The notes under the pieces are model-generated. The model made no database searches, was not told the origin of the DNA, and was given only the letters and a program-made list of their open reading frames with translations. The translations under genes and the position numbers were made by a program. Below are positions 29,537-50,502 of a stretch of 50,756 nucleotides of DNA, in pieces. Origin of the DNA: Candidatus Eiseniibacteriota bacterium (lineage in GTDB: Bacteria; Eisenbacteria; RBG-16-71-46; CAIMUX01; WJJG01); assembly GCA_014729815.1 (NCBI GenBank), contig WJJG01000105.1:1-50756 (forward strand), written 5' to 3'. The first letter of the stretch is position 1; each line of letters starts with the position of its first letter.

Positions 29537-32500
29537 CTACCTGGTCAGGATCAGCTTCCGCGTGACGTCGATCCCATCGGCCCGGAACTGGTAGAAGTAG
29601 ACGCCCGAGCCCAGAGCCACGCCGCGCGCATCGCGCCCGTCCCACGTGACTACGTAGCTCCCCGCATCGACGCTGCCGTCCTGCAACGTGCGCAGCAGGC
29701 GGCCGCTCGGATCGAAGATCTCCAGCCGCACGTCCGAGCGTGCGGGCAGGCGATAGCTGATCATCGTCTGGTTGCCGAACGGATTGGGCCGGTTCTGATC
29801 GATCGCCGGGCGCAGCACCAGGGGCGTCGCCTCCCCGCCGTCCGACGGATCGAGCTGCGTGCCCGAGAAGGAGACGTCATCGATGTACCAACCCTCGCGG
29901 GTGTCGGCGCCGTCACTGCCGAAGCGGAACCGGAAGCGCGCCTCGCCGGCATAGCCGACGAGCTCGAAGGTTGCCGCGGCCCAGTCGATGTTGCCCGAGT
30001 AGACGGGGGTTTCCGCCGGGAACGGTCCGGGTGTGCTGCCCTCCCGCACCAGGTAGGGATACCCGCCGACGGGTGTGATCTGCTCCCACGGAGCCCCATC
30101 GACCGACATCTCGACCAGGCCACCGTCGTAGCAGTAGTCCGGATAGGCACCGCTGGTCTCGGCCTCCATCCAGTGCCGGAAGCGCAGGTAACACTGATTG
30201 CGCAAGGCGACCGGCTCGGTCTCCAGCGCTCCATCGGCCAGATTGGTGTAATCGCCGCTGCCGGTGTCGCCGAACTTCCAGCTCGTCGCGCCGCCCGGCG
30301 TGTAGTTGCGCTGTGTCGACTGGTGCCACTGATCGACGAACCCGCCCGTGACGATGTAGTGGGTCCAGAGCCCGTAGCCGCTTTCCATATCGTCCCAGAA
30401 CCCGCCCACCGGCAGGTCGAAGGTCGGTGACGCCGTCTGCTCCCAGTCGGCATTGATCACCAGGCAGCCGCAGAGGATGTCCGGCTCGGGACACTCCGGG
30501 GCGATCGTGACCTCGAAGGCCGTGGCCGGGGGGGCCTCGCCCCCCGCCGGCAGCAGATCCAGCGTCGCCATGCCCTGGTCGATCGTCACGTACTGCGAGT
30601 AGACGTGCAGGTGGATCGCCAGGCCGGTGGCATCCTCGCTGCCCGTGTTGCAGAGCATCGGGAGGAGCTGCACCGTCTCGCCCGGCTCGGCCAGACCGTC
30701 GCCATCCCCGCCGGCCGCATCCATGACGCTCACCGCACCCAGTTCCAGGACCGGCGCCTCGACGAGCAGGTTGAACTCCTTCTCCCAGACCATCCGGTTG
30801 TCCGACTCGACCAGCACGTCGAAGGCCAGCAGGTGCCCGTCCGGACAGGCGGGGGAGATGTGGAACTCGAAGTCGTCGATACAGAATCCTTGCTCGTCCG
30901 GGGCGATGTCACCGTACTCCTCATAGGCATCGAGGATCTCGACGTGACCATCCTCACTGCTGATCGTGGCCCGCACGTTGGTGGCGGTCTCGATGCCCAC
31001 GTTGCGCAGGCCGAGCAGCAGCTCGAGCGTCTCGCCGGCATCGCAATCGCCGTCGGCATTGCCCGCGCTGTCGTCGGCCAGGTCGTCGTCGAGGATCCGA
31101 TCGCCGACCGAGATGTAGGGGCCGTCGGGCGGGATGATCGGGGTCTCCCCGTTGAAGGTCAGATAGTCGTGGGCCGTGACCTTCAGATAGAGCGTGCCGG
31201 GCTCCTGCGGCTCGACGAGCAGGGTCACCGCACCGGTGGCATCCGTGACCCCGGTCGCATAGACGCCGAAGTCCGCCGTGTAGGCCGTCACTCGCGCGCC
31301 GGCTACCGGGCCGCCGCCGCCATAGACCGTGACCTCGTACTCCGGCACGCCGATCAGGACGACATCCGGGTAGCTGACGTTCAGCGCCACCGGATCCTCG
31401 GTCCAGAGATGCATGGCCGGATCGCCGAAGAGGTTGAGCTGGTAGTAGCACCAGCGGTTGGCTCCGAAGTCGATGGCCCAGATGACGTCCATGCGCGAGT
31501 CGTCGTTGACGTCGGCCAGCGGGTAGATCTGCTCGTCGAAGATCGCATCGAAGAACTCGCGGTCGAAGTACTGCGACGAACCATTCGTGCCGCCGGGATC
31601 CCCCCAACCGTAGCGCGAGTTCATCACCAGCGCCGCCGCGCCGTCATCGTCGGTCTGGAACTCCTCGGCGAAGGAGTTCGAGTCGAAGGCGCCGCAGTAG
31701 CAGCCCTGACTGTAGACGAAATTGTAGCTGTGCTCGGTCCCGTCGTTGTCGAACGAGGGGATGTCGCTCAGGTACATCTTCATCGCGTAGTCGGTGTTGC
31801 AGTGGCCGAGATGATTGACGATGTTCAGGCCGCTCTCCATCATGTTGATCAGCGTGGTCTTCGACCAGGTGGCGTCGCGGTCGTAGAGCGTGCCGACGTT
31901 CATCGGGCCCGGGATGAAGCCGACCGTCGTATAGCCGTTCGCGCTGGATCCATCCTTGATCTCGTCCTTGTAGGTCCCGCCCCAGGTCAGCGGACTCGAC
32001 CAGAGCAGCTCGCCGACCATCAGCGCTTCGTCGCACTCGGCCACGATCGGTTCGTCCGTGTAGCGCAGCGTCTTGGTGATGAAGTTCTCCATCTCGCCCG
32101 CGTCGGTGACGCAGGCCCGTCCGACGCCGATCTCGAAGTAGAGATCGTCCTCGCCCTCCTCGCCCCAGCGGCCGTCGCCGTCATCGTTCCAGGTGCCGTC
32201 GAGGCAGCCGTAGTAGAGGTCGGCCGGGATGTTCGAGTCGGTCTCTCCGTAGGCGTAGGCGTAGAAGCCGCGGTGGGGAATGCCGCCGCTGTCGTTGGCG
32301 TCGCCGACCAGCAGGACGTATTCGACGTCCCAGGTCTGGTAGGCATCGATGATGAAGTCGCGGATCCGCCACTGATCGTCCTGCCCGGCCGGGTAGTTGC
32401 TGACGATCCAGGACCGGGAGAAGACGCCGGCCTTGTGGCCCCGCGCGGTCTGGAACTGGACCAGCGGATCGACCGCATCGACCCAGTCGTCGCCGGCGAT

Positions 32501-33229
32501 GATCAGGTAGGTGTAGGCCTCGGCCGGATCGAGTCGCGAATCCTCGTCGCGCAGGCGCAGGATCGGCTCGTAGGCTCCGATCCGCTCGGGGTTGTCGATC
32601 AAGGCCGCCACGCGGGCCTGAGTGCCTGCGTCGGTGCGGATCATCCGTGCCGTCTCACGCATCGCCGCGCCGCTCGGGGCGGTCGTGAGGACGACCTCCA
32701 GGCTGCGGTAGTAGGCCAGCGTCCCGGAGGCCGGGACGTACTCGACCGGATGCAGCGCCAGCGTCGCGATGCGATGGCCACGCATCATCCCGGTCTGCAC
32801 CGCATCGTGCAGGCGGCCGGGGTACGCGCGGTCGCTTTCGTAGATCTCCGGATCGGCCGGCACGGCGGCCACCGGGCCGGTGTGGCTCAGCGGCATCTGC
32901 GGCTGACCGACGGCCACGGCGTGGCTGCCCGGCAGCTCGATGCGCGCCCCGGGGATCACCTGCACATCGGTGACCGTCTCCCCCGGCGGCAGGAGGATCC
33001 GCGCGCCGGCGAGCGGCAAGACGGGCGCGCCCGGATCGCCATGGCTCCAGGCCTCCTCCATCTCGACCCGCACACTCCCGCCCGCGGCGGTGAGCGTGGG
33101 CGCGGTGAAGTCATAGGTGACGCGCGTGACGCCCGCCTGGGCGATCGCGGCGCCCAGGGTGATGCACGCCAGCAAGCACGTGATCTGCACGAGCGCGCCG
33201 GCGACCGGTCGACGGTTCCCTCTTCTCAT
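29537..33229 (-). CDS. Gingipain-like (C25) surface cysteine protease with C-terminal sorting domain
   Basis: This 1230-residue protein starts behind CGAGGAGGTCTCGAG and has the signal region 'ITCLLACITLGAAIAQA'. A gingipain prodomain-like region (~30-230) precedes the C25 catalytic domain. The catalytic dyad is predicted at His476 in 'NIVNHLGHCNTDYAM' and Cys510 in 'YSQGCYCGAFDSNSFAEEF'. Ig-like and CARDB-like modules follow ('DCDAGETLELLLGLRNVG', 'DGDGLAEPGETVQLLPM'), then a jelly-roll module ('GWYIDDVSFSG'). It ends in an FlgD-like/type IX C-terminal domain ('NRPNPFGNQTMISYRLP', then 'GVYFYQFRADG'). It is presumably exported across the outer membrane and used for extracellular proteolysis. 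Confidence 0.93.
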   Translation of the reverse strand: MRRGNRRPVAGALVQITCLLACITLGAAIAQAGVTRVTYDFTAPTLTAAGGSVRVEMEEAWSHGDPGAPVLPLAGARILLPPGETVTDVQVIPGARIELPGSHAVAVGQPQMPLSHTGPVAAVPADPEIYESDRAYPGRLHDAVQTGMMRGHRIATLALHPVEYVPASGTLAYYRSLEVVLTTAPSGAAMRETARMIRTDAGTQARVAALIDNPERIGAYEPILRLRDEDSRLDPAEAYTYLIIAGDDWVDAVDPLVQFQTARGHKAGVFSRSWIVSNYPAGQDDQWRIRDFIIDAYQTWDVEYVLLVGDANDSGGIPHRGFYAYAYGETDSNIPADLYYGCLDGTWNDDGDGRWGEEGEDDLYFEIGVGRACVTDAGEMENFITKTLRYTDEPIVAECDEALMVGELLWSSPLTWGGTYKDEIKDGSSANGYTTVGFIPGPMNVGTLYDRDATWSKTTLINMMESGLNIVNHLGHCNTDYAMKMYLSDIPSFDNDGTEHSYNFVYSQGCYCGAFDSNSFAEEFQTDDDGAAALVMNSRYGWGDPGGTNGSSQYFDREFFDAIFDEQIYPLADVNDDSRMDVIWAIDFGANRWCYYQLNLFGDPAMHLWTEDPVALNVSYPDVVLIGVPEYEVTVYGGGGPVAGARVTAYTADFGVYATGVTDATGAVTLLVEPQEPGTLYLKVTAHDYLTFNGETPIIPPDGPYISVGDRILDDDLADDSAGNADGDCDAGETLELLLGLRNVGIETATNVRATISSEDGHVEILDAYEEYGDIAPDEQGFCIDDFEFHISPACPDGHLLAFDVLVESDNRMVWEKEFNLLVEAPVLELGAVSVMDAAGGDGDGLAEPGETVQLLPMLCNTGSEDATGLAIHLHVYSQYVTIDQGMATLDLLPAGGEAPPATAFEVTIAPECPEPDILCGCLVINADWEQTASPTFDLPVGGFWDDMESGYGLWTHYIVTGGFVDQWHQSTQRNYTPGGATSWKFGDTGSGDYTNLADGALETEPVALRNQCYLRFRHWMEAETSGAYPDYCYDGGLVEMSVDGAPWEQITPVGGYPYLVREGSTPGPFPAETPVYSGNIDWAAATFELVGYAGEARFRFRFGSDGADTREGWYIDDVSFSGTQLDPSDGGEATPLVLRPAIDQNRPNPFGNQTMISYRLPARSDVRLEIFDPSGRLLRTLQDGSVDAGSYVVTWDGRDARGVALGSGVYFYQFRADGIDVTRKLILTR

Positions 33230-33706
33230 CTCGAGACCTCCTCGATTGCTTGGGATCCATAGATGTGTGGAACGCCGCGCGGGCGTGTCCGAAACGGCAC
33301 CCCAGGAGCGTGACCTGTGCGCTCGATCCTCACCGCTCCCTTCCTCCAACGCGCGGACGCATGATGGCGGGGCGTTGCCAGGCCGCCCGCGCGCCGGCGA
33401 GCGAGCCTATGCAACACAATTGATTCTATCACGCTGGGCGAGCGCGGTCACCCGCGCTGCTGCCTCGGGCAGGCGCCGACGTCGCGGCGGGTAGGGACGC
33501 GGCGTCACGACCAGCCGTGGCGAGGCCCATACGTGTATGCGGGACAATGGATTCGGTCCACCCGCAGCCCATCGCGGACCCCCGGCAGAGCACCAGGGCA
33601 CCACCGGCCGACCGCCGCAAACACCGCCCCCGTCGCCCGCACTGGTGCCCCTTGCTCTGGGGCGAGAGCCAAGGCAGACTCGCGCGGCGAAGAGTGGGGA
33701 GGGGGC
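33230..33706. other. Divergent promoter region between C25 protease and patatin genes
   Basis: This 477-bp spacer carries the candidate C25 promoter (33423-33451) and an AT-richer patch around 33405-33430. A plus-strand frame extends upstream of the patatin start, but its composition is not protein-like. No other signal was found. Confidence 0.45.
33423..33451 (-). promoter_or_regulatory. Candidate promoter of the C25 protease gene
   Basis: On the minus strand GTGACC (33446-33451), a 17-bp spacer, then TAGAAT (33423-33428). These match four of six -35 and five of six -10 consensus bases with ideal spacing. The leader to the ATG at 33229 would be about 190 nt, long enough for post-transcriptional control. 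Confidence 0.4.
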
Positions 33707-34639: not shown

Positions 34640-35543
34640 TCAGGATCAAGGCCACGACGGTCAGCAGGATCGCCAGGCGTTCGCGCCGCGTCGGCCGCTC
34701 CCGAAATGCGGTGACGCCCACCAGGTGGATGATCACGATCGTGCCGGCGCCGTAGGCCGGAAAGGCCACCGCGGCGGGAATCGTCTCCAGCGCGGCGATC
34801 AGAAAGAAAGACGAGAAGAGATTGGGAATCCCCACGGCGACGCCGGTCAGGAGTTCCGCTACGCGCACCGGACGGCGGCGGGCCACCGCCACCGAGCTGC
34901 TACACAAGAACGCGATGAAGAAGGTCACCAGCAGGAAGACCAACTTGTAGTCCTGCAGCGCGTACTTCTGGAAGATCTTGTTGCTGAACTCCGCCGTGCC
35001 TCCGAATAGGAAGAGCAGCAACAGGGCCACGCGAATCGCCGCGCGCCAGTTGCGTCCGGGGGGCCAGTGCACCAGCAGGATCGAGGCGATCGCCAGGGCG
35101 ATGCCCAGCCACTGGATCGCGCGCGGATACTCCTGCCACAGCAACAGCGAGAGTGACATCGGTACCAGGATGCCCAGCTTGGCAAAGGCGCCCGCCAGGC
35201 TCACGCCGTGCTCGCGCACGCTGATCTGGTAGTAGACGAACGCCAGGAAGAAGACCACGCCGGCGCCGAGTCCCACGAGCAGCGCCCAGGCGAAGCTGCC
35301 GGACGGTGAGAGGCGAGCGTCGCTCGCTCCCAGTGCCGAGGAGATTTCCACCAGATCAGCCGGCGGCGCGGGCGGGAGCCCGAGCGGTGGCGGGCGCAGC
35401 GCGAGCAACAGGATGCTGATCAGGCAGGCGGTCAGGTAGTTGGCGCTGGTGACCGCGTAGCGGTTCATGCCGGCTGTTTCGCTGCGCCGGAAGATCAGTG
35501 CGATCGACGCACTGCAGGCGATTGCCAGCCAGAGCACCCACAT
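34629..35543 (-). CDS. EamA/DMT-superfamily transporter
   Basis: This 304-residue protein has about ten hydrophobic segments in two halves, as in drug/metabolite transporters. Examples are 'WALLVGLGAGVVFFLAFVYY', 'LAGAFAKLGILVPMSLSLLL' and the terminal 'LAILLTVVALILINL'. The motif at the end of each half, 'AVAFPAYGAGTIVIIHLVGV' with 'RERPTRRERLAI', matches EamA modules. The transported compound is unknown. The start has only a weak ribosome site. It is divergent from the S9 peptidase gene, with a 131-bp spacer. Confidence 0.82.
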   Translation of the reverse strand: MWVLWLAIACSASIALIFRRSETAGMNRYAVTSANYLTACLISILLLALRPPPLGLPPAPPADLVEISSALGASDARLSPSGSFAWALLVGLGAGVVFFLAFVYYQISVREHGVSLAGAFAKLGILVPMSLSLLLWQEYPRAIQWLGIALAIASILLVHWPPGRNWRAAIRVALLLLFLFGGTAEFSNKIFQKYALQDYKLVFLLVTFFIAFLCSSSVAVARRRPVRVAELLTGVAVGIPNLFSSFFLIAALETIPAAVAFPAYGAGTIVIIHLVGVTAFRERPTRRERLAILLTVVALILINL

Positions 35544-35674
35544 GGCGCCGCAGCGTAGCAGTCGCCTGACGCCTCTGCTAGCATAGGCCCGCGACGTTCC
35601 CTGCCGCGGCGCGCGCCCGGCGGGCCGCGAGCGGTCGGACTGCGGTGCAGAGCATTCGCAGGGAGGAGGTCGAG

Positions 35675-37747
35675 GTGGCAGCGCGCAAGAGCAATCGGCG
35701 ACCGATTCGGATCGAAGACCTGCACGGGCTGAAGTTCATGCCGCCCGGGGCGCTGTCCCCCACGGGGGAGCGCTACGTCTTCCCGGTCAAGTCGGTGCGC
35801 GAGGATCGCAAGGGCTATGATACGCACTTGTATATGGCCGAGGTCCACGAGGGAGGCGTGCGGCAGCTCACCTTCGGCGAGCGCTCGGATGCCTCCCCGC
35901 ACTTCTCCCCGGATGGATCGCACCTGGCCTTTCTCGGCACGCGGGGTCGCCATCCCGGCATCCAGCTCCTGCCGATGGATGGGGGAGAGGCGCGCACGCT
36001 GGTCGAGCGGGACGGACAGTTCGCCGACCTGACCTTCTCCCCCCACGGTCGCCAGATCGCATGCACCTTCCGGCCCAACGATCCCCCCCAGACCCTCTCC
36101 AGCGAGGAGGGGCGAAAGGAGACCGCCCCGGAGCGCGGCGGCTCGGACGGTGAGGCCAGCCGAGCCGAGCGGCAGGCCAAGGAGCGCGCATCGAAGGTGC
36201 CGATCTACCGCCACATCGACCGGCTCTTCTACCGTCTGGATGGCCAGGGCTTCCTGCCCAAGGCCGAGCCGCAGATCTGGCTCTACGACGTCGAAACCGG
36301 TGAGGGCCGACAGCTCACGCGCGGGAAGCGGGGCTGCCATGCGCCGAGCTTCTCGCCCGACGGCCGGCGCATCGTCTACTTCTCGAACGTGCGTCCGGAT
36401 CCGGACCTGGAGATGGCCCGCACCGATCTCTTCGTGATCCCCACGCGCGGGGGGCGCGCGCGGCGCATCCCCACGCCCCCGGGTCCGGCCTACCTGCCGA
36501 CGTTCTCTCCGGACGGGAAGTCGATCGCCTATCTGGGCCACGACGACATCGATGCGCTCTGGTATGGAAACAACCGCGTCTGGATCGTGCCGGCCAGCGG
36601 ACGGGGCGCGGCGCGCTGCACCTGTCCCGGCTTCGATCAATCCGCCGAGGACCGCACGCTGGGCGATGTGGGCGGCGGATGGTTCCAGCTCCGTCCCACC
36701 TGGAGTCCGGATGGTCGCTGGATCTACTTCGTCTCGTCCCATCACGGTGCGACCCGCCTCTATCGGGTGACCGCACGCGGCGGCACTCCGCAGCCGCTGA
36801 CCCCGGATCGCCAGCATCTGATGAACGTCACGCTCTCGGCGGACGGGAGATCGGCCGCCGGTACGGTTTCGTCCGCCACACGGCCCCCGGAGGTCTTCCG
36901 CTACGATCTGCGCCGTCGCAGCGGCACGCCGCTCTCCCATCTCAATCGCGATTGGGCCGCCGGCCTCCAGATCCAGCGGCCGCGCCACGTGCGCGTGCGC
37001 TCGACCGAGAAGACGGTCGTGGATGCCTGGATCCTCAAGCCACCGCGCTTCTCGATGCGCCGGAAATACCCGGCGGTCGTCGAGGTGCACGGCGGGCCGC
37101 AGGGGCAGTACGGCTACACCTTCTTCCACGAGATGCAGCTTCTCGCGGCGCAGGGCTACGTCGTGATCTACAGCAATCCGCGCGGTTCCGGCGGATACGG
37201 CCGGGCCTTCTGCGAGGCGATCCGCGGTGCCTGGGGCACGCGCGACTTCGACGATGTCACGGCCGTGACCGACTACCTCGAGAAACTGCCGTACGTCGAT
37301 CGCAACCGCATCGGCATCACCGGGGGTTCCTACGGCGGCTACATGACCAACTGGGCGGTCGGCCACACGCGGCGCTACAAGGCGGCCGTCACCCAGCGAT
37401 CGGTGGTCGATCTGGTGCCCTTCTTCGGTTCCTCCGACATGGGCTTCTCGTTCCACCACACGTTCGATCACTATCCGTGGCAGGACCTGGAGGGCTACCG
37501 CCGACAATCGCCGCTGACCTACGCCAAGCAGATCCGCACGCCGCTCCTGATCATCCACTCGGAGAACGATCTGCGCTGCAACATCGAGCAGGCCGAGAAC
37601 CTCTTCGCCACGCTGAAGGTGCTCAAGCGGCGGGTGGAGTTCATCCGCTTCCCCGAAGAGCCGCATGGCCTCTCGCGCGGGGGACGGCCGGATCGCCGGC
37701 AGGTGCGGCTGGAGAGGATCCTCGACTGGTTCGAGCGATATCTGTAG
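35675..37747 (+). CDS. S9-family prolyl oligopeptidase-like serine peptidase
   Basis: This 690-residue enzyme has an N-terminal beta-propeller of WD40-like TolB repeats ('ASPHFSPDGSHLAFLGTRG', 'APSFSPDGRRIVYFSN', 'LPTFSPDGKSIAYLGHDD'), which gates the active site. A C-terminal alpha/beta hydrolase follows. The triad is Ser552 in 'GITGGSYGGYMTNWA', Asp632 in 'HSENDLRC' and His664 in 'EEPHGLSRGG', as in acylaminoacyl-peptidases. No signal peptide is visible, so it probably degrades peptides in the cytosol. The GTG at 35675 follows GGGAGGAGGTCGAG and is preferred to the GTG at 35645, which has no ribosome site. Confidence 0.93.
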   Translation: MAARKSNRRPIRIEDLHGLKFMPPGALSPTGERYVFPVKSVREDRKGYDTHLYMAEVHEGGVRQLTFGERSDASPHFSPDGSHLAFLGTRGRHPGIQLLPMDGGEARTLVERDGQFADLTFSPHGRQIACTFRPNDPPQTLSSEEGRKETAPERGGSDGEASRAERQAKERASKVPIYRHIDRLFYRLDGQGFLPKAEPQIWLYDVETGEGRQLTRGKRGCHAPSFSPDGRRIVYFSNVRPDPDLEMARTDLFVIPTRGGRARRIPTPPGPAYLPTFSPDGKSIAYLGHDDIDALWYGNNRVWIVPASGRGAARCTCPGFDQSAEDRTLGDVGGGWFQLRPTWSPDGRWIYFVSSHHGATRLYRVTARGGTPQPLTPDRQHLMNVTLSADGRSAAGTVSSATRPPEVFRYDLRRRSGTPLSHLNRDWAAGLQIQRPRHVRVRSTEKTVVDAWILKPPRFSMRRKYPAVVEVHGGPQGQYGYTFFHEMQLLAAQGYVVIYSNPRGSGGYGRAFCEAIRGAWGTRDFDDVTAVTDYLEKLPYVDRNRIGITGGSYGGYMTNWAVGHTRRYKAAVTQRSVVDLVPFFGSSDMGFSFHHTFDHYPWQDLEGYRRQSPLTYAKQIRTPLLIIHSENDLRCNIEQAENLFATLKVLKRRVEFIRFPEEPHGLSRGGRPDRRQVRLERILDWFERYL

Positions 37748-37783
37748 CCGCCGGCGTGGGGCGATTGAAGCGCGGCGGGCTGG

Positions 37784-37837
37784 CGCGGCATCTACCGAGT
37801 GGCGGCCTTGCGCGGCGTCTACCGGGCGGCGGCCTTG
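37784..37837. repeat. Tandem 27-bp duplication across a stop codon
   Basis: The units at 37784-37810 and 37811-37837 agree at 24 of 27 positions (core CTACCG...GGCGGCCTTG). The unit contains the last codons and the TAG stop of the minus-strand caspase-like gene, so the second copy is a translated-looking echo after the stop. It lies between convergent genes. Confidence 0.75.
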
Positions 37838-38475
37838 CGCTGCTTCTTCTCGGCGGCTGCAACCTTGCGGCGGGCCTTGGCCGTGGCCTCGGCGGTGTCC
37901 TTCTCGGTGGCCATGCGGAAGTCGAGCTCCGGAAAAGAGCCGGCGATCACATCTGCGGCCTTGTGGATCGCAGAGATCCCGCGGCCGGAGAACTCGTTGC
38001 GCTGCATCTGTGAGAAGAGCAGCAGCTCGAAGGCCAGCGACTTCATCCAGTCGACGTCCACGCGGTATCCGCAGACGCCCAGCGCCCCGGTCTTGCGCAC
38101 GAAGCGCTGTAGCTTGCGCTTCTCGATTCCCAGCGTGCTGCACGAGGAGAACATCAGCACTCGGTCCTCGCACTTTCCCTCGAGCAGGCGCGCCATGCGG
38201 CTCAGCTTGTAGACCTTGCCCTGGATCTCGACTCCGCTCTCCATGCCGTGGCTGGCCAGGTACAGGATCGGGAAGGCGGCGTACCGCCTCTGAGTCCAGC
38301 GCTCGAGATAGAACTCCAGCTCCTCGCGCGTGGCATACTCGCGATGGATGTACTCGATGCCTTCGTGCAGGCGCAGCAGCTCGAGGATCGGGCGCACCGT
38401 GGAGGTCACGCGCAGATCCGGATCCCAGAGTCCTTCGATGCAGAAGATCCCCTTCTTCTGCTTCCGTTTGCGCAC
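37819..38475 (-). CDS. Caspase-like cysteine protease-fold protein (DUF6642-like)
   Basis: This 218-residue soluble protein opens with 'KGIFCIEGLWDPDLRVTSTV', matching what I recall of the DUF6642 family. The core has the clan CD arrangement: His76 at the end of a strand in 'FPILYLASHGMESG', then Cys112 in 'DRVLMFSSCSTLGIEKRK' about 36 residues later. 'GVCGYRVDVDWMKSLAFELL' follows. The last ~30 residues are Ala/Lys/Arg-rich and probably disordered. Caspase-like and CHAT proteins often act as effectors triggered by a partner, but no such partner is adjacent. The substrate is unknown and the family name is from memory. Confidence 0.65.
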   Translation of the reverse strand: MRKRKQKKGIFCIEGLWDPDLRVTSTVRPILELLRLHEGIEYIHREYATREELEFYLERWTQRRYAAFPILYLASHGMESGVEIQGKVYKLSRMARLLEGKCEDRVLMFSSCSTLGIEKRKLQRFVRKTGALGVCGYRVDVDWMKSLAFELLLFSQMQRNEFSGRGISAIHKAADVIAGSFPELDFRMATEKDTAEATAKARRKVAAAEKKQRKAAAR

Positions 38476-38556
38476 ATATCCCTCCGCTGGCGATGCGCGT
38501 TGCGTGGGGGCGGTGCGAGCATCTCGCGCGCTGTCTTGCCGCTTGCGGACAACTGC

Positions 38557-40023
38557 CTATCGAATCCGGATCATCCTGCGGGTCTGCATGAAGTCGCCGG
38601 CCGTCAGGCGGTAGTAGTAGATGCCCGCCGGCACCGCCGCCCCGCGGCCATCGCGCCCGTCCCATTGCAGCGCATGCAGCCCGGCGCGGCGGCGGGCCCG
38701 CACCAGGGTGCGGATCGCGCGTCCCTGGGCATCGTAGAGCTGCAGGCGTACATCGGCGTCTCGGGCGAGTCGGTAGCTGAGCTCGGTATGCGAGCGGAAC
38801 GGGTTGGGGTAGTTGCCTTCCAGGATGCTGAAGCGCGGCGGATGCCGGTCCGGGGCGCCAGACCCCGTGAGGATCTGCTCGAGCACGGTCAGGAACGACT
38901 GCATCTCCTCGAGCGTGCCGGTGGAGACGCGCAGATGGTTCTGCATGCCCCATCCAGTGCGCACGTAGATCCCTTCGTCGGCCAGCGCCGCCGAGACGGG
39001 CCCGGCCGGCTGGCCCACGTCGACCATGAAGAAGTTCGTCTCTGAGGGGATGTAGTCGAGGCCCAGTGCATCGAATCCGTCGAAGCAGAGCTGTTTGGCC
39101 TGATCGTTGAGCGCCACGGTGTCGCTGATGTGCTGCGCGTCGGTCAGCGCCGCCCGGCCGCCCTCGAGGGCCAGACGCGAGACGGTGCCCCAGTTGTGCC
39201 ACATCGTCATCGAGCCGATCAGGCTCTGCTTGCCCACCGCGTAGCCGAGTCGCACGCCGGCCATCCCGAAGATCTTCGAGAAAGTACGGATGACCACGAC
39301 GTTCTTGCCCTGGCGCACGAGCTCCATGGCCGACTCGTAGGCCGGGTCGTGGATGTACTCGTGATAGGCCTCGTCGATGATCACGGTGACATGCTCGGGC
39401 AGCGCATCGACGAACGCGGCGATGTCGACCGCCGGCAGAACGGTGGCCGTGGGGTTGTTGGGGTTGGTGAGGCAGACCGCGGTCGTGTGCGCGTCGACCT
39501 GCGAAGCCATGTCGGCCAGATCGATGCGCCAGTCCTGATCGAGACCCGAGTGACGCACTTCGGCGCCCATGAAGGCGCAATCGGAGCCGAACTGCCCGTA
39601 GGAAGGAGTCGGTACGACGACGTTGCCCTCCGGGTCGGCAAAGGCGAAGGCCGCCAGGCGCAAGATCTCGGTGGCCCCGCAGCCGGCGATCGTCTGAGGA
39701 CGCTCGACCTGATGCAGGTCGGCGAGGTCTTCGCGCAGCGATTCGGCGTACCAGTCGCCGTAGCGATGGCCCATCGGCACGGCATCGACCATGGCGGCCT
39801 GCGCGAGGGGCGAGGGGCCCAGGGGATTCTCGTTGTAGCAGAGCCGGCCCACGTAGTCGTCGCGCACCGGCAGGTCGGCCGGCGCCGTCGCGCCGATGCG
39901 CGGCCCGCGCAGCAGGGCCAGGGCGGCCATGCCGGCGGTGGCGCCGAAGAAGGAGCGACGCGAGAGGCCCGAGGACCCCAAGCGATGGTCTCTGAGTGAA
40001 TTGCGAGTTCTGCGGAGTGCCAT
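38557..40023 (-). CDS. Tat-exported HisC-like PLP aminotransferase with FlgD-like C-terminal domain
   Basis: This 488-residue protein opens with a twin-arginine signal, 'SGLSRRSFFGATAGMAALAL'. It then has a complete fold-type I aminotransferase resembling histidinol-phosphate aminotransferase: 'CYNENPLGPSP', 'CGATEILRLAAFAFADPEGN', 'CLTNPNNPTA', 'IIDEAYHEYI', and the PLP lysine Lys250 in 'RTFSKIFGMAGVRLGYAVG'. After residue ~400 comes 'NYPNPFRSHTELSYRLA' and 'GIYYYRLTAGDFMQTRRMI', the same kind of terminal domain as on the C25 protease. Tat export would allow PLP loading before export. The ATG at 40023 follows CTCGAGGTGCGCC. The substrate is unknown. Confidence 0.88.
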   Translation of the reverse strand: MALRRTRNSLRDHRLGSSGLSRRSFFGATAGMAALALLRGPRIGATAPADLPVRDDYVGRLCYNENPLGPSPLAQAAMVDAVPMGHRYGDWYAESLREDLADLHQVERPQTIAGCGATEILRLAAFAFADPEGNVVVPTPSYGQFGSDCAFMGAEVRHSGLDQDWRIDLADMASQVDAHTTAVCLTNPNNPTATVLPAVDIAAFVDALPEHVTVIIDEAYHEYIHDPAYESAMELVRQGKNVVVIRTFSKIFGMAGVRLGYAVGKQSLIGSMTMWHNWGTVSRLALEGGRAALTDAQHISDTVALNDQAKQLCFDGFDALGLDYIPSETNFFMVDVGQPAGPVSAALADEGIYVRTGWGMQNHLRVSTGTLEEMQSFLTVLEQILTGSGAPDRHPPRFSILEGNYPNPFRSHTELSYRLARDADVRLQLYDAQGRAIRTLVRARRRAGLHALQWDGRDGRGAAVPAGIYYYRLTAGDFMQTRRMIRIR

Positions 40024-40054
40024 GGCGCACCTCGAGGGTGATCGGGATCCAGGT

Positions 40055-40157
40055 CGACGAACCACCCACAATGATACGTCATCTGCGGCGGCAGCGAAAC
40101 GTTCCCCTGCGCCGCCCGCGCGGCGGAGCCCCTCGCCTCATGGTGGGTGGTTCGTCG
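40055..40157. repeat. 103-bp structure bounded by 20-bp inverted repeats
   Basis: CGACGAACCACCCACAATGA at 40055-40074 has an inverted copy at 40138-40157, differing at one base. The 63-bp interior is GC-rich and non-coding. It lies 32 bp upstream of the exported aminotransferase start and 90 bp past the phosphatase stop. In RNA it would form a long hairpin in the aminotransferase leader, and as DNA it resembles a small inverted-repeat element. Confidence 0.75.
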
Positions 40158-42900: not shown

Positions 42901-43938
42901 TCACGCACCCAGCTTCTGCAGATTGACATGTTCCTGCACCATTGTGGTGAGTCGCGCGATCTTGTCCGACTCCTCCTTGGTCAGCAGATGCTCGATGTCG
43001 TCGATGCGTTTGGCGACCTGATAGGTGTCCTCGGCCACCAGCAGCATCGGCACGCCCCGCTCGGCGACCTGCGAGATGATGTTGGCCGGTGGCATGACGT
43101 TGTTGGTCAGCACGATGCCCACCGTGTCGCCCTCCAGCGCGGCCAGGATCATGTCGCTGCGATCCCCGCTGGTGATGACCAGGCGCTGCTCCTCGGCGAA
43201 GCGTGGTTCCCGGCGTGCGGCGTCGGCGTCCATGGCGCCGACGAAGATGTGCTTGACCGTGCGGTCGAGCTGCCCCTCGCCGGAGAGGATCTTGGCGAAG
43301 AGCACGCCGGCCAGGAAGCCGACCGAAGGGTGCGTCAGCTCGGCATCGAAGGGAATCACGCCCAGCAGGGGAATGCCCAGCTCGTCGATGTGACGGCGGT
43401 AGGTGTTCTCGAAGTCGTCGGGATCCTTGACCTGATTGGCGATCGCTCCGATCAGAGGCACTCCGCGCAGGTCGATATGGTGCTTGAAGAACTGCAGATC
43501 GTCGAGGATCTCGTCCTCGGGCCCACTGGCCACCAGGAGCAGCTGCGCCTCGGCATGCTGCGCCACTGTGAGTGCATCCAGGTGCACCGAGCCGCCGAAG
43601 CCGAGATCCTTCCCGGCCTCGATGAAGACCAGCTGCTTGCCCTCTTCGATCTGCGCCAGCAGCTGGCCCAGCTTGGCGCGGGTCGACGCCTGGTCGTACA
43701 TGAATCGCAGCTTCGAATGATCGAAGCCGATACTCATCTCCTCCGGCTCGGAGTCGAGCCCCAGGATGTTGACCACCAGCGCCGAGTCGTAGTCCCACAG
43801 GCGCTTCTTGCGGTAGAGCAGCCGATCGCCGAACGGCTTCATGTATCCCACCGGCTTCTGCAGCGTGCGCGCCATCCCGATGATGGCGCTCGTCTTGCCG
43901 GCGCCCTCACGCGTCGAGGCAACGACCAGTCTAGGCAT
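42901..43938 (-). CDS. BioD-like P-loop / DRTGG domain protein (phosphotransacetylase-family N-terminal module)
   Basis: This 345-residue protein matches the N-terminal, non-catalytic part of long phosphotransacetylases. It begins with a dethiobiotin-synthetase-like P-loop, 'VVASTREGAGKTSAIIGMAR', and 'GYMKPFGDRLLYRKKRLWDY'. A DRTGG-like domain follows, around 'VKHIFVGAMDADAARREPRF', 'LVITSGDRSDMILAALEGDT' and 'GIVLTNNVMPPANIISQVAE'. The catalytic Pta domain is absent. Its start overlaps the stop of the acetyl-CoA synthetase gene by 8 bp, with GGAGGGAG upstream. A regulatory role for that enzyme is inferred from the gene coupling and the Pta parallel. Confidence 0.8.
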   Translation of the reverse strand: MPRLVVASTREGAGKTSAIIGMARTLQKPVGYMKPFGDRLLYRKKRLWDYDSALVVNILGLDSEPEEMSIGFDHSKLRFMYDQASTRAKLGQLLAQIEEGKQLVFIEAGKDLGFGGSVHLDALTVAQHAEAQLLLVASGPEDEILDDLQFFKHHIDLRGVPLIGAIANQVKDPDDFENTYRRHIDELGIPLLGVIPFDAELTHPSVGFLAGVLFAKILSGEGQLDRTVKHIFVGAMDADAARREPRFAEEQRLVITSGDRSDMILAALEGDTVGIVLTNNVMPPANIISQVAERGVPMLLVAEDTYQVAKRIDDIEHLLTKEESDKIARLTTMVQEHVNLQKLGA

Positions 43939-46069
43939 CTGTACTCCCTCCGGCAGTCTCGGTGAGCAATACCCGCACATCGACCGCCTTGGCTCCGTGG
44001 CCCTGTTCGTAGGCCACCAGCGGGTTGACTTCGATATCGGAGATCTCCGGGCAGTGCCGGATGATCGTGGCGAGGCGGATGATCGCATCGGTGACGCTCT
44101 CGATGTCGCGGCGCTCCTCGCCACGCACACCGAGCAGCAGGGGATAGGCGCGGATCTCCTTCATCATCGCCAGCACTTCGCGCCGATCGAGCGGCGCCGC
44201 GCGGAAGGAGACATCCTTGAGCACCTCGACGTAGATCCCGCCCATGCCGAACATGACGATCGGCCCGAAGCTGGCATCGCGCCGCGCGCCGGCGATCAGC
44301 TCGACGCCCGAGGCGACCATCTCGGCGACCTCGATCCCCTGGATCCGCGCCTGCGGCATGCGCGTGCGGCAGTTGCGCATGATCGCCTGGTAGGCGTCGA
44401 TGACCTCCTCGCGGTCTTCCAGATCGAGCGCCACGCCGCCCACATCGCTCTTGTGCAGGATGTCGCGCGAGACGACCTTCAGCACCAGCGGGTAGCCGAT
44501 CTGCTCGGCGGCCTGTACGGCCTCGTCCAGATTGCGCACCACGCGACTGCGGGGCAGCGGGATGCCGATGGCGTCCATCAGCGCCTGCCCTTCATGCGCC
44601 AGCAGAAAGCTCCGCTTCTCCGACCGCGCACCGCGTACGATCCGGTCGATGGCGGCGGTGTCGATCTCGGTCTCGTCCGTCGCATCGCGGCGCTGCTGCA
44701 GGTAGCGCCCGTAGCTGTAGAGCCCGCCCATGCAGGCCACGGTCTCGTAGACGTCCCCGAAGACCGGCACGCGCTCCTTGGTGAGCGTATCGAGGCTCGT
44801 CTCGGTGTCGGCGCCGCCAAAGATCGAGAAGAGCAGCGGCTTGCCGCGCTCCTTGTACCGCGCGTAGTTGCGGCGGATCATCTTCATCAGGGACTCGGCG
44901 TCGAAGAGCGCCGTCTCGCAATAGAGCGCCAGGACAGAGTGGATCTTCTCGCTCGTGAGCGCCGCGTCGAGGGCTACGCGGTAGTGTTCGGCGCTGGCTT
45001 GGCCGGTCAGATCGATCGGATTCTTGGTCGAGCCGAAGTCGGGTGTGACCGGACTGAAGATCTCCTTGAGGGTCTGGGCATCATCATAGAGCGGCACGTC
45101 GTATTTCTCGCAGGCATCCGTGGCCAGCACGCCGATGCCGCCGCCGTTGGTGACGATGACGGCATGGCGGCCCGCGGGCGGAGGCGTCTCCGAGAGGAAC
45201 TTGCAGAGGTTGAAGGCTTCCTCCACGCTCTCGGCGCGCAGTACGCCCGCCTGGCGCATGACCGCCTCGAAAATCGCGTCCGACCCGGCCAGCGAGCCGG
45301 TGTGCGAGGCGGCCGCTACCGCGCCGCGCTTCGAGCGCCCCGACTTGATCGCCACGACCGGCTTCCGGCCGGTCGTCTCGCGCAGGACCTCGAGCAGCTC
45401 CTCGCCCTCGCGCACCCCTTCGATGTACATCAGGATCGTGCGCGTGTTGGCATCCTCCATCAGATAGCGCAGCAGGTCGGCCTCGTCGATGTCGGCCTTG
45501 TTGCCCACCGAGATCATGGCCGAGATGCCGACGTTCTCGACGGCCGTCTTGCCGATCATCGCCAGACCCAGGGCGCCGCTCTGCGTGATGATCGCCACGC
45601 TGCCGTGGCGGATCCCACCGGGCCCGAAGGTCGCATCCAGCGAAGCGGAGGCCGAGAACATGCCGAAGATGTTGGGCCCCAGGATGCGCATGCCGCGCTC
45701 GGTGGCGTAGCCGACGAGCTGGCGTTCCTCTTCGAGGTTGCCGACCTCGGAGAAGCCCGAGGTGATCACCAGATTGTACTTCGTGCCCCGATCAGCCAGA
45801 TCCTGCACCGCACCCAGTGCGTACTTGGCGGGCACGCAGGTGACCGCCAGGTCGATCTCGGTCGGGACGTCCGCGGCCCTGGCGTAGACCGGGCGGCCGA
45901 GGATCTCGCCCCCCTTGGGATTGACCGGGTAGATCTTGCCCCCGTAGCCGCCCTCGATGATGTTCTCGAGGATCGTGTGCCCGATCTTGCCCGGCGTGTG
46001 CGAGGCGCCGATCACCGCGACCGAGCGCGGCTCGAAGAGACGGCGAATGTGCGGTCCGTTACCCGGCAT
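43931..46069 (-). CDS. ADP-forming acetate-CoA ligase, fused alpha-beta subunits
   Basis: This 712-residue enzyme interconverts acetyl-CoA (or acyl-CoA), ADP and Pi with acetate, CoA and ATP. It allows substrate-level ATP formation in fermenters. The N-terminal CoA-binding domain shows 'SVAVIGASHTPGKIGHTILE'. The CoA-ligase domain carries 'ILGPNIFGMFSASASLDATF' and the phosphorylated His256 in 'GAVAAASHTGSLAGSD'. The C-terminal ATP-grasp domain has 'GYPLVLKVVSRDILHKSDVG' and 'FGPIVMFGMGGIYVEVLKD'. The start overlaps the upstream CoA-transferase gene by 11 bp, so the genes are probably cotranslated. Confidence 0.95.
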   Translation of the reverse strand: MPGNGPHIRRLFEPRSVAVIGASHTPGKIGHTILENIIEGGYGGKIYPVNPKGGEILGRPVYARAADVPTEIDLAVTCVPAKYALGAVQDLADRGTKYNLVITSGFSEVGNLEEERQLVGYATERGMRILGPNIFGMFSASASLDATFGPGGIRHGSVAIITQSGALGLAMIGKTAVENVGISAMISVGNKADIDEADLLRYLMEDANTRTILMYIEGVREGEELLEVLRETTGRKPVVAIKSGRSKRGAVAAASHTGSLAGSDAIFEAVMRQAGVLRAESVEEAFNLCKFLSETPPPAGRHAVIVTNGGGIGVLATDACEKYDVPLYDDAQTLKEIFSPVTPDFGSTKNPIDLTGQASAEHYRVALDAALTSEKIHSVLALYCETALFDAESLMKMIRRNYARYKERGKPLLFSIFGGADTETSLDTLTKERVPVFGDVYETVACMGGLYSYGRYLQQRRDATDETEIDTAAIDRIVRGARSEKRSFLLAHEGQALMDAIGIPLPRSRVVRNLDEAVQAAEQIGYPLVLKVVSRDILHKSDVGGVALDLEDREEVIDAYQAIMRNCRTRMPQARIQGIEVAEMVASGVELIAGARRDASFGPIVMFGMGGIYVEVLKDVSFRAAPLDRREVLAMMKEIRAYPLLLGVRGEERRDIESVTDAIIRLATIIRHCPEISDIEVNPLVAYEQGHGAKAVDVRVLLTETAGGSTDA

Positions 46070-47978
46070 GATGTCCTCTGAAACGCATGCGCAGCTCCAC
46101 GACCCCTTCGGCCGTGCGGCGCTGGATGTCGAAACCCATCTTCTCGAAGAGACTCAGCATCGGGCGGTTCTCGATCAATACCTCGGCCGAGAAGCCCAGC
46201 AGGCCCTGCTTCTGGGCCAGCTGCGTCAGATAGGAGAGGATCTCCGTGCCGACCCCGTGTCCCTGGTAGTCGTCGCGCACCACGAGCGCCACCTCGGCGG
46301 TGTGCGTGTGTTCGTCGATGCCGTACTGCCCCACACCCAGGAGCTTTTCGCGCTCCTCGTCGGGCGCCTCGCCGGCTTCCACCGCCAGGATGACCATCTC
46401 CTTCGTGTAGTCGATGATCACGAACTCCTGCAGTCGCTCGTGGGGCATATCCAGCCGCTGCGAGATGAAGCGCTTGTAGATGCTCTGGTCCGAGAGCGAG
46501 TAGAAGAACTCCTTGAGAAGCGGCTCGTCGCTGATCTTGACCGGTCGCAGCTGCATGCTCAGACCCGAGCGCGTCGTGCGCACCACCTCGAGGTCCTCGG
46601 GGTACTCGCCGCGCTTGCCGGGGATGAAGGCCTGGTCCGTGTAGATCAGCTTGCGGCGCTTGGCCTCGGCGATCAAGTCGGAGCGGAACTTCGGGTGAGC
46701 GATCGCCACCAGGGCCATCGCCCGCTCGCGGATATTTTTGCCGTGCAAGTAGGCGATCCCGTATTCGGTGACGACGTAGTGCGTGTCGCCGCGATCGAGC
46801 GTCACACCGGCCCCCTTCTCGAGATAGGGGACGATGCGTGAGACCTCCCCGTCCCGCGCGGTGGAGGGCAGCGCCAGGATCGTCTTGCCGCCGGGCGCCA
46901 GCACCGCGCCGCGCATGAAATCGGCATGCCCGCCGATGCCGCTGAAGAAGGTCTCGCCGATCGAGTCGGCCGTGGCCTGTCCGGTCAGATCGATCTGCAG
47001 CGAAGAGTTGATGGCCGTCATGTTCTCGATGCGCGCGATCGTCAACGGGTTGTTCGTGTAGCTGATCTGGCGGAACTCCACGGCCGGGTTGTCGTCGAGG
47101 AACTCGTAGGTCTCGCGGCGGCCCATGCAGAAGGTGCCCACCGCCTTGCCGCGATCGATCGACTTGCGCGAGTTGTCGACCACGCCGCGCTTCATCAGCT
47201 CGACCAACCCGTCGCCGATCAGCTCGGTATGGATGCCCAGGCGCTTCTTGTCACGCAGGTTGCGGATCACTGCATTGGGAATGCTGCCGTAGCCGACCTG
47301 GATCGTATCGCCATCCTGGACGATGCGCGCCACATACCCGCCGATCCGCTCGGCGATCTCGTCGGGCGCGTCGTCCTTGTACTCGAGGATCGGCTCGTCG
47401 TGGGGCAGGAGGAAGTCGACGTCGCGCATGTGCACGAACGTATCGCCGTGCACGCGCGGGAAGTGGCTGTTGACCTGGGCGATCACCAGCGAGGCGTTGT
47501 CGACCGCGGCCTTGGTGATGTCCACGCTGACGCCCAGACTCATGTAGCCGTGCTCGTCGGGACGCGAGACCTGGATCAGGGCTACATCGACCGGCACCTG
47601 CCCGCGCTGCAGCAGATCGGGGATCTGCGAGAGGAAGACCGGCGAGTAGTCCGCCAGGCCCTCGTTGACCGCCTCGCGCGAGCTGTTGCTGATGAAGAAG
47701 GAGTTGTGACGGAAATTCCGCTGGAACTTCCGATCCGTGTAGGGCGCCACACCCAGTGTCCAGACGTGGAAGACCTCGGCGCCGAAGATCGCCTTGGGGT
47801 GATCGCGCACGTAGTCGATCAGGGCCTGCACGAGGTACTGCGGCTCGCCGCAGCCGGTGCTGATGAAGATCCGATCGCCGCGATGGATCCGCGCGAAGAT
47901 CTTCTCCTCGGGCGCGAACTTCTCCGGATACTGCTCGCGCAGCAACTCGAGGCTCTTCTGTGTCCGCTCGTCAGCCAT
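46059..47978 (-). CDS. Acetyl-CoA hydrolase/CoA-transferase fused to GNAT acetyltransferase
   Basis: This 639-residue protein has an Ach1/4-hydroxybutyrate CoA-transferase module in residues ~1-450: 'GDRIFISTGCGEPQYLVQAL', 'DTIQVGYGSIPNAVIRNL', 'GLVELMKRGVVDN' and 'VVTEYGIAYLHGKNIRERA'. Residues ~475-639 are a GNAT domain: 'QLRPVKISDEPLLKEFFY', then the acetyl-CoA-binding 'VVRDDYQGHGVGTEILSYL'. This fusion is known in other bacteria. The GNAT part may acetylate lysines to tune the pathway. The ATG at 47978 is chosen over a GTG four codons upstream because GGAAGGTGG fits it. It is the first gene of the acyl-CoA operon. Confidence 0.9.
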   Translation of the reverse strand: MADERTQKSLELLREQYPEKFAPEEKIFARIHRGDRIFISTGCGEPQYLVQALIDYVRDHPKAIFGAEVFHVWTLGVAPYTDRKFQRNFRHNSFFISNSSREAVNEGLADYSPVFLSQIPDLLQRGQVPVDVALIQVSRPDEHGYMSLGVSVDITKAAVDNASLVIAQVNSHFPRVHGDTFVHMRDVDFLLPHDEPILEYKDDAPDEIAERIGGYVARIVQDGDTIQVGYGSIPNAVIRNLRDKKRLGIHTELIGDGLVELMKRGVVDNSRKSIDRGKAVGTFCMGRRETYEFLDDNPAVEFRQISYTNNPLTIARIENMTAINSSLQIDLTGQATADSIGETFFSGIGGHADFMRGAVLAPGGKTILALPSTARDGEVSRIVPYLEKGAGVTLDRGDTHYVVTEYGIAYLHGKNIRERAMALVAIAHPKFRSDLIAEAKRRKLIYTDQAFIPGKRGEYPEDLEVVRTTRSGLSMQLRPVKISDEPLLKEFFYSLSDQSIYKRFISQRLDMPHERLQEFVIIDYTKEMVILAVEAGEAPDEEREKLLGVGQYGIDEHTHTAEVALVVRDDYQGHGVGTEILSYLTQLAQKQGLLGFSAEVLIENRPMLSLFEKMGFDIQRRTAEGVVELRMRFRGHHAG

Positions 47979-48065
47979 GGTCCGTTCCACCTTCCGCTCG
48001 CTGCGTAGCGGGCGCCGGCCCGCTCGAAGGAATCCAACATTCTGCTACCGCCCGGCCCCCGCGCG

Positions 48066-49068: not shown

Positions 49069-50112
49069 CTACCGGCGCCGCGGCGGCGGAGGCGGCGGCT
49101 TGCGACGGTGCCGCGGCGGGGGCGGCTTGCGTCCCGGACCCGCGTGGCGGCGAACGACGCGCCGATGGTGGAGCACCCGCTTGGCCAGCTTCGGGTGGCG
49201 ATAGTGGAAGCGCGCATGACGGCGCAGCAGCGGCTTGCGCGCGATCAGCAGACGATGGCCCCAGACACGCCGCGCCAGCGCCGGCCGGCGACCGAGCCAG
49301 ACGCGGCGGGACCAGAGAAGCCGGTGAATCCGCGGGGTCCGGGCAGCGCGCAGGCGATAGCGCCACCAGGTGCGCCAGAGCGCAGGCCGCGGGCGCCACC
49401 AGCGCCAGTGTGCGCGCAGGGCGCGCGCGATCGGCGGACGGGCCCGCACGTAGTGGTGCAGTCGCCACCAGGCCCGATAGAGGCCCGGGTGGGCACGCAG
49501 GTAGTCGACGAGCACAACGATCTGCGGATCGGATCCACTGTACGTGGGCGCGGCTTCACTGGCGAAGATCTCCTCGGCCAGATCCGCGTCACCCTGCACC
49601 TCGGCCACCGCCTCGGCGTGTGCCTCGAAGTCCTCGGCGTCTTCGGCGGCGGCCGTCTCGAACGCCTCCATGCGTTCGCCCAGATCCTCGTCGCTGGCCA
49701 TCAGGCTGTCGAAGGCCGCCATCTGGGATTCGGCCTCCGGATCGTCGGCCGCGGCCTCCTCGAGCTCCTGGGCGCGCTGGGCGAGCAGCGAGTCCTCGGC
49801 CAGCGCCTCGTAGTAGGCCGCTTCGTGCTCGGCCAGCTCCGGATGCGCGTCGACCGAATCCTGGTAGGCCAGGAAGCTCTCTTCGGCTTCCGGGTCTTCG
49901 GAGAGGGCGCCCTGCAGCGCCTCGATTTCCTCACGCTCCCCGGGGTTCTCGGCGAGCAGCTGATCGTAGTCCGAATCGGTGGACGGCTCCGCAGCCGATA
50001 TGCCGGGCGCGGCGAGCAGCGGGAGGACCAGCAATCCCAGCCGGAGCCCCCAGCGGGGCACGGACGTGGCGCGTCGGCGGCGGTTCGGCACACGAATCGA
50101 GGCAGCCATCAT
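49069..50112 (-). CDS. Exported charge-segregated protein of tandem 17-residue repeats
   Basis: I do not recognise a family for this 347-residue protein. A signal peptide ('GLRLGLLVLPLLAAPGISA') is followed by seven consecutive 17-residue acidic units (residues 56-174), for example 'HPELAEHEAAYYEALAE'. A linker follows (175-194), then a 13-residue unit. Next come five 17-residue basic/aromatic units (208-292), for example 'RPALWRTWWRYRLRAAR', another 13-mer and a last 17-mer. Units mostly begin with X-Pro and have Leu/Ile at position 4. The tail (323-347) is Pro/Arg-rich. The 13 versus 17 lengths differ by one helical turn, which suggests stacked helices. Acidic and basic halves could pair within or between molecules. 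AAGGAGG precedes tandem ATGs. Confidence 0.85.
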   Translation of the reverse strand: MMAASIRVPNRRRRATSVPRWGLRLGLLVLPLLAAPGISAAEPSTDSDYDQLLAENPGEREEIEALQGALSEDPEAEESFLAYQDSVDAHPELAEHEAAYYEALAEDSLLAQRAQELEEAAADDPEAESQMAAFDSLMASDEDLGERMEAFETAAAEDAEDFEAHAEAVAEVQGDADLAEEIFASEAAPTYSGSDPQIVVLVDYLRAHPGLYRAWWRLHHYVRARPPIARALRAHWRWWRPRPALWRTWWRYRLRAARTPRIHRLLWSRRVWLGRRPALARRVWGHRLLIARKPLLRRHARFHYRHPKLAKRVLHHRRVVRRHAGPGRKPPPPRHRRKPPPPPPRRR

Positions 50113-50502
50113 CGTTCCTCCTTGGCAAGCGAGTCGGTTCGGTTCCTCCTCCCTGCGGTGGGTGGGAAGCGATCTTCCGGGAACGGGCGCGGGTGCGTCT
50201 GCGGCGATGTGGGACCGTTCGCCTCCTGTCTATCCCGCTTGGCAGCCGCGGTCAAGCCGCCCGGGGCTCGGGGGCCGCCACTCGGCGCTCGGGGGGGCGT
50301 CGGACGGGGCCCCGGACGGGCCGAGGCGCCCCGGGGGTGTCGGAAGTGGCCTCGGGGGGTGCTCGAGACTGTACCCGGGGTGGCCGGGGTTGCCGCGCGA
50401 GTTCCAAACCCCGGGAGTGGAACCGGCCGGCGGCCAGGGCGTAGGATGGGATCCTGCAAGAGGCGCAAGGGACGTATGTCACCGGAAGCGAGGAGGTGCG
50501 GG
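50113..50502. other. GC-rich divergent intergenic region
   Basis: This 390-bp spacer lies between the charge-segregated repeat protein and the glycine-zipper lipoprotein genes, which diverge here. It is extremely GC-rich between 50270 and 50420, with runs of G. No promoter, repeat or coding frame could be assigned. Confidence 0.45.

Follow-up and report, generated by a model that had tools for sequence, protein, structure and literature searches.

A putatively exported 17-residue repeat protein with a conserved acidic-to-basic charge switch in Eisenbacteria, a candidate envelope scaffold

Prothymosin alpha and histone H1 bind each other in a charge complex in which the partners carry opposite net charges of about 44–53 (PMC11592313). 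The protein described here resembles that pair in combining opposite net charges of comparable size, a likeness of principle only and without homology. Whereas prothymosin alpha and histone H1 are two separate eukaryotic proteins, both charges lie here in one predicted helical chain. Among repeat proteins, tetratricopeptide repeats (TPR) share with its acidic half the 34-residue (2 × 17) spacing and the position of Pro, but the present protein has a Pro at every 17 residues and no Pfam-level or fold match to TPR. The MHB/mycobacterial haemophore-related proteins (PF16525, TIGR04529) have in common with it a helix start of the form HP-[ED]-hydrophobic-A; however, their domain is short, while the present protein is a long array. 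The 17-residue bufferin repeats are unrelated, being β-helices, and a literature search found no papers on a charge-switching 17-residue repeat of this kind.

Gene, repeat register and predicted structure

The window, i.e. the whole stretch of 50,756 nucleotides that was analysed (contig WJJG01000105.1 of the Candidatus Eiseniibacteriota assembly GCA_014729815.1), contains on its minus strand an ORF at 49069–50112 with a translation of 347 amino acids. The features assigned to it are as follows:

49069–50112, minus strand: complete gene of a putatively exported charge-switch repeat protein, 347 aa (translation, orthologues, codon-position test)
50119–50126, minus strand: AAGGAGG Shine–Dalgarno sequence just 5′ of the ATG (seen in the sequence)
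49990–50112, minus strand: signal peptide region, approximately residues 1–41 (seen in the sequence; variable among orthologues)
49591–49947, minus strand: seven acidic 17-residue units, residues 56–174 (period test, unit table and charge, predicted helices)
49525–49590, minus strand: 13-mer and Pro-Thr-Tyr linker up to an invariant Asp-Pro, residues 175–196 (orthologue alignment)
49237–49491, minus strand: five basic Trp/Arg/His-rich 17-residue units, residues 208–292 (period test, invariant residues)
49147–49236, minus strand: end of the basic array, a 13-mer (293–305) and a final 17-mer (306–322) (period test, unit table)
49072–49146, minus strand: Pro/Arg-rich C-terminal tail of low predicted order, residues 323–347 (sequence, low pLDDT)

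The ORF is a real gene: five genomes keep its frame, and in every orthologue pair divergence is greatest at the third codon position (0.46–0.69, compared with 0.20–0.41 at the first two). Both lines of evidence also rule out an artefact of a GC-rich frame, and a search against Rfam found no RNA family in the window. The leader, read from the sequence, consists of a basic n-region, a hydrophobic core and an Ala-X-Ala-like cleavage site near ISA/AEP. Elsewhere in the window, positions 29537–33349 encode a 1270-residue C25 (gingipain-type) peptidase with a propeptide and a C-terminal FlgD-like Ig domain, and a cluster at 42901–47990 comprises an acetyl-CoA hydrolase/transferase fused to a GNAT domain, an NDP-forming acyl-CoA synthetase (ATP-grasp) and a DRTGG/AAA_26 protein. 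A putative ORF of 1524 codons without any Pfam match lies on the minus strand at 35495–40069.

The initial annotation had parsed the mature protein without gaps into 17-residue units, and this parse was reproduced on the translation. The acidic units begin at residues 56, 73, 90, 107, 124, 141 and 158 and the basic ones at 208, 225, 242, 259 and 276; between the two arrays, the gap-free parse places a 13-mer from residue 175 and a linker of residues 188–207. At lag 17 the autocorrelation greatly exceeds that of shuffled sequences in both halves (z = 4.9 in the acidic and 5.7 in the basic half), its score being reached by no shuffle at any lag in either half. Eleven of the 15 units in the unit table start with X-Pro and eleven carry Leu or Ile at position 4, as had been described. 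The proposal that both halves share one repeat geometry also stands, with the hydrophobicity register, the 17-mer profile of a related repeat (HPEVA, see below) and the predicted helices in agreement: the unit hydrophobicity profiles of the two halves reach their highest correlation (0.53) when the X-Pro registers are matched, and the correlation of the hydrophobic fraction by unit position is then 0.69. Compared directly at the profile level, the halves align over 14 columns with a probability of 2% and a score of 17 versus 7 for column shuffles.

AlphaFold2 modelled the full protein with a pLDDT of 73 and a pTM of 0.65, and the best model of the mature core reached a pLDDT of 86.3 and a pTM of 0.80. 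Predicted helices are spaced approximately 17 residues apart in both halves, with boundaries on the unit register. This is consistent with the regular helical repeat anticipated by the annotation, as judged from the core models, one of which was confident among five (pLDDT 86, 65, 59, 50 and 48). Foldseek found no PDB fold matching the core model with an E-value below 0.2, and no match to the full-length model in a viral structure library.

Orthologues and the charge switch

Four orthologues of the protein were identified, three in the same order (genomes G004, G007 and G003) and one on a contig (L011) of a MAG labelled Zixiibacteriota. Their identity to the window protein is 42–49% over the full alignment and 47–51% over the core. 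The distribution is patchy, with a strong match in 4 of the 47 genomes of the phylum; the remaining two matches in this set are TPR proteins. Orthology was rejected for weak matches in G008, G013 and G135, which are TPR or TPR-like proteins, and four matches in G114 were set aside, the one that was read (L032) being an unrelated short tandem repeat on the other reading. In the scan of genome contigs, a single-sequence query returned no relatives, and an alignment query returned L011–L013. A search of 116 genomes around L011 found no other full-length copy, and the L011 copy may represent a transfer or a mis-binned contig. No relatives were found on viral contigs and plasmids. The Eisenbacteria loci have no conserved neighbour genes in common; the G007 orthologue adjoins a run of haem-synthesis genes (L015:11718–18906) that is absent at the other loci, and the G003 orthologue (L016:3812–4840) carries tandem LLPAALLVA copies within its signal peptide.

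The 17-residue period is retained in the orthologues: the top lag is 17 or 34 in each half of all four, although the period is weak when the basic half of G007 and the acidic half of G003 are taken singly (z of approximately 2.5, p over all lags 0.2–0.3). The switch from acidic to basic, the other central element of the initial annotation, is present in 5/5 proteins; it is genuine and conserved in its lineage. With net charge defined as Lys + Arg minus Asp + Glu, the acidic part as residues 46–187 and the basic part as residues 196 to the end, the five orthologous proteins have acidic/basic net charges of −44/+45, −37/+33, −40/+38, −31/+30 and −43/+41. The charges of the halves cancel to within 4 in every case, where a random spread of approximately 9 would be expected from some 80–90 charges, so that near-neutrality could also arise by chance. 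Acidic and basic charges covary (r = 0.96, p = 0.01, n = 5, the sequences not being phylogenetically independent). The G003 protein, in which the 13-mer 293–305 and the final 17-mer of the basic array are missing, has lost units in each half, yet its charges remain balanced. We regard this near-exact charge balance as the most interesting new fact of the analysis; it is compatible with each of the three behaviours that had been suggested, namely fold-back of the chain, head-to-tail polymerisation and condensation with polyanions.

Over the orthologues, the basic half contains 30–46 Lys/Arg, 12–17 His and 17–26 aromatic residues. Six Trp, three His and seven Arg are invariant in this half in the five-row alignment, and the invariant positions within residues 208–292 are H208, P209, W216, R217, H235, W236, R237, W238, P241, R242, W246, W250, H263, W267, R269 and R270. 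With Trp, His and Arg fixed at defined positions, the basic half is more than a charged tail or polycation. Mean pairwise identity is 47% in the acidic and 53% in the basic half, and the C-terminal tail is Pro/Lys/Arg-rich in every orthologue.

Homologous repeat proteins in other phyla

The initial annotation knew of no described family like this protein. That holds for curated resources, as searches of Pfam, NCBIfam and the PDB yielded no family, but the protein is not without relatives, since homologues exist in other phyla at the profile level. The first group, for which we coined the name FPWW (loci L049–L060), belongs to another phylum and is present in 22 of the 147 genomes around G382. 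The profile of the window protein family (A4) aligns with FPWW over 174 columns (probability 98.5, E = 3.2e-15) at a score of 106, compared with 15 ± 3 for shuffles and 21 for the reversed control. No Pfam model matches FPWW at cut-off. FPWW proteins share a putative signal peptide, the 17-residue period (lag 17 is their strongest pooled period), Pro-punctuated helices, a Trp/Arg/His-rich second half and a Pro/Arg-rich tail. In contrast to the window protein, they show no charge segregation, with −9 to +1 in the N-terminal and −10 to +8 in the C-terminal part. At most loci whose contigs reach far enough, FPWW genes lie behind genes for a Fis-type regulator and a glycerol-1-phosphate dehydrogenase (G1PDH)-like enzyme; the cluster (L061–L070, e.g. 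L064:6166–9163) comprises the Fis-type (HTH_8) regulator, the Fe-ADH_2/G1PDH-like enzyme and the putatively exported FPWW protein. The Eisenbacteria loci differ in having neither gene linked, and a search at E 1e-15, run without a positive control, found no G1PDH-like gene in the 47 genomes of the phylum.

The second group, the HPEVA proteins of other phyla, are putatively exported proteins that combine an EF-hand with near-perfect HPEVAKxLYxNRxWLxx 17-mers, for which Pfam holds no repeat model. Those at L018:1231–2286, L020:1003–2373 and L029:1420–2346 have up to approximately 11 repeats and a basic C-terminus. The basic half of the window protein family (A2) aligns with the HPEVA alignment at a probability of 97.4 (E = 1.5e-11), and the HPEVA 17-mer profile scores 50 with the basic and 34 with the acidic half, against approximately 8 for column shuffles and 15–16 for reversed sequences. 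HPEVA proteins resemble the window protein in their putative export, in their X-Pro 17-residue helical units and in placing an acidic module before a basic repeat array; unlike it, their acidic part is an EF-hand pair without repeats, their charges are only loosely matched and the Trp/Arg-rich HWRW block is lacking. X-Pro-Glu is a generic helix cap. The profile comparisons suggest that the acidic and basic halves likely share ancestry through an HPEVA-like unit.

Within the wider group formed by FPWW, HPEVA and the window protein, a 17-residue period and in-register profile homology were both found, and an N-terminal hydrophobic leader was visible by eye in the complete members that were read. 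Because the homologues in other phyla lack a strong switch, the switch appears to be a lineage-specific addition, most simply read from these sequences as derived within the Eisenbacteria branch.

Possible roles of the opposing arrays

Several functions could be considered for a protein of this architecture. In a rather unlikely but serious one, the protein would be a polyanion-binding envelope protein whose basic Trp/Arg/His array binds LPS, peptidoglycan, polyphosphate or extracellular DNA, while the acidic array provides solubility and a total charge near zero. The richness of the basic half in Lys/Arg, His and aromatic residues, the Pro/Arg tail of all orthologues and the retention of the Trp/His/Arg motifs in FPWW relatives without a strong acidic half all point this way; however, the acidic half is more than a solubility tag, since its conservation comes close to that of the basic half and it keeps its register. 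The Trp/Arg-rich composition, the charge-matched acidic region at the N-terminus, the Pro-Thr-Tyr linker between the halves and the C25-type peptidase encoded in the same window would also suit a secreted cationic effector whose membrane-active half is freed from its acidic shield by proteolysis, much as certain cationic proteins of host defence carry acidic pro-regions. We consider this effector improbable: the loci have no linked immunity, export or maturation gene and no conserved neighbours, the peptidase is approximately 16 kb distant, FPWW relatives lack charge segregation, and helices are conserved exactly across the whole basic half, unlike in short antimicrobial peptides.

A haem- or metal-binding periplasmic protein, akin in function to mycobacterial haemophores, is very improbable. 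The haemophore models PF16525 and TIGR04529 pick up HPEVA relatives, one orthologue weakly matches TIGR04529 (E = 0.0012), His and Tyr are invariant and the G007 gene lies beside haem-synthesis genes, but the window protein matches neither model at cut-off, the matches are short and centred on the HP-E-V-A helix cap, and the other loci have no haem genes. Similarly, there is little to favour a divergent TPR-type solenoid of 34-residue repeats (2 × 17 = 34) that binds partner proteins. The acidic half resembles TPR in sequence, matching TPR chains in the PDB (E = 6e-4) and scoring 25 against a TPR profile compared with 8 for shuffles; yet no Pfam TPR model matches at the curated cut-off, the basic half scores 9 and is unmatched, the acidic half is closer to HPEVA (34 versus 25), and Foldseek with the core model, the one confident model of five, returned no TPR structure. 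TPR membership was rejected on the absence of a Pfam match, the profile scores and the lack of a fold match, and the TPR reading is weakened because Pfam and fold matches are absent, although the acidic half has this resemblance.

We tentatively favour, at somewhat less than even confidence, an exported envelope scaffold in which the array of acidic helices pairs with that of basic helices. According to this proposal, the protein would be an exported structural protein, periplasmic or on the surface, in which each 17-residue unit forms one amphipathic helix with an X-Pro N-cap. We infer the mutual binding of the halves, the envelope location and the scaffold role: since the same chassis carries matched opposite charge, the two arrays would bind each other, either intramolecularly, by folding back, or from one molecule to the next in head-to-tail fashion. 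Specific packing could come from the Trp/Arg/His pattern in the basic half, and the Pro/Arg tail may anchor the particle to an anionic polymer of the envelope. Charge pairing could not be the ancestral function, because FPWW relatives fulfil the role of the family without segregated charges. More speculatively, the wider group may constitute a new one-helix-per-unit repeat class without a solved fold, in which one lineage has made the two halves charge-matched and thereby created a self-complementary envelope building block, as a fold-back unit or a polymer; we consider this full scenario possible but doubtful.

In summary, this protein draws attention to a set of putatively exported helical proteins with 17-residue repeats, spread over several phyla, for which the resources searched contain neither a curated family nor a solved fold. 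A functional charge match would make it a natural self-complementary repeat scaffold, in which one helical chassis presents two opposite surfaces.
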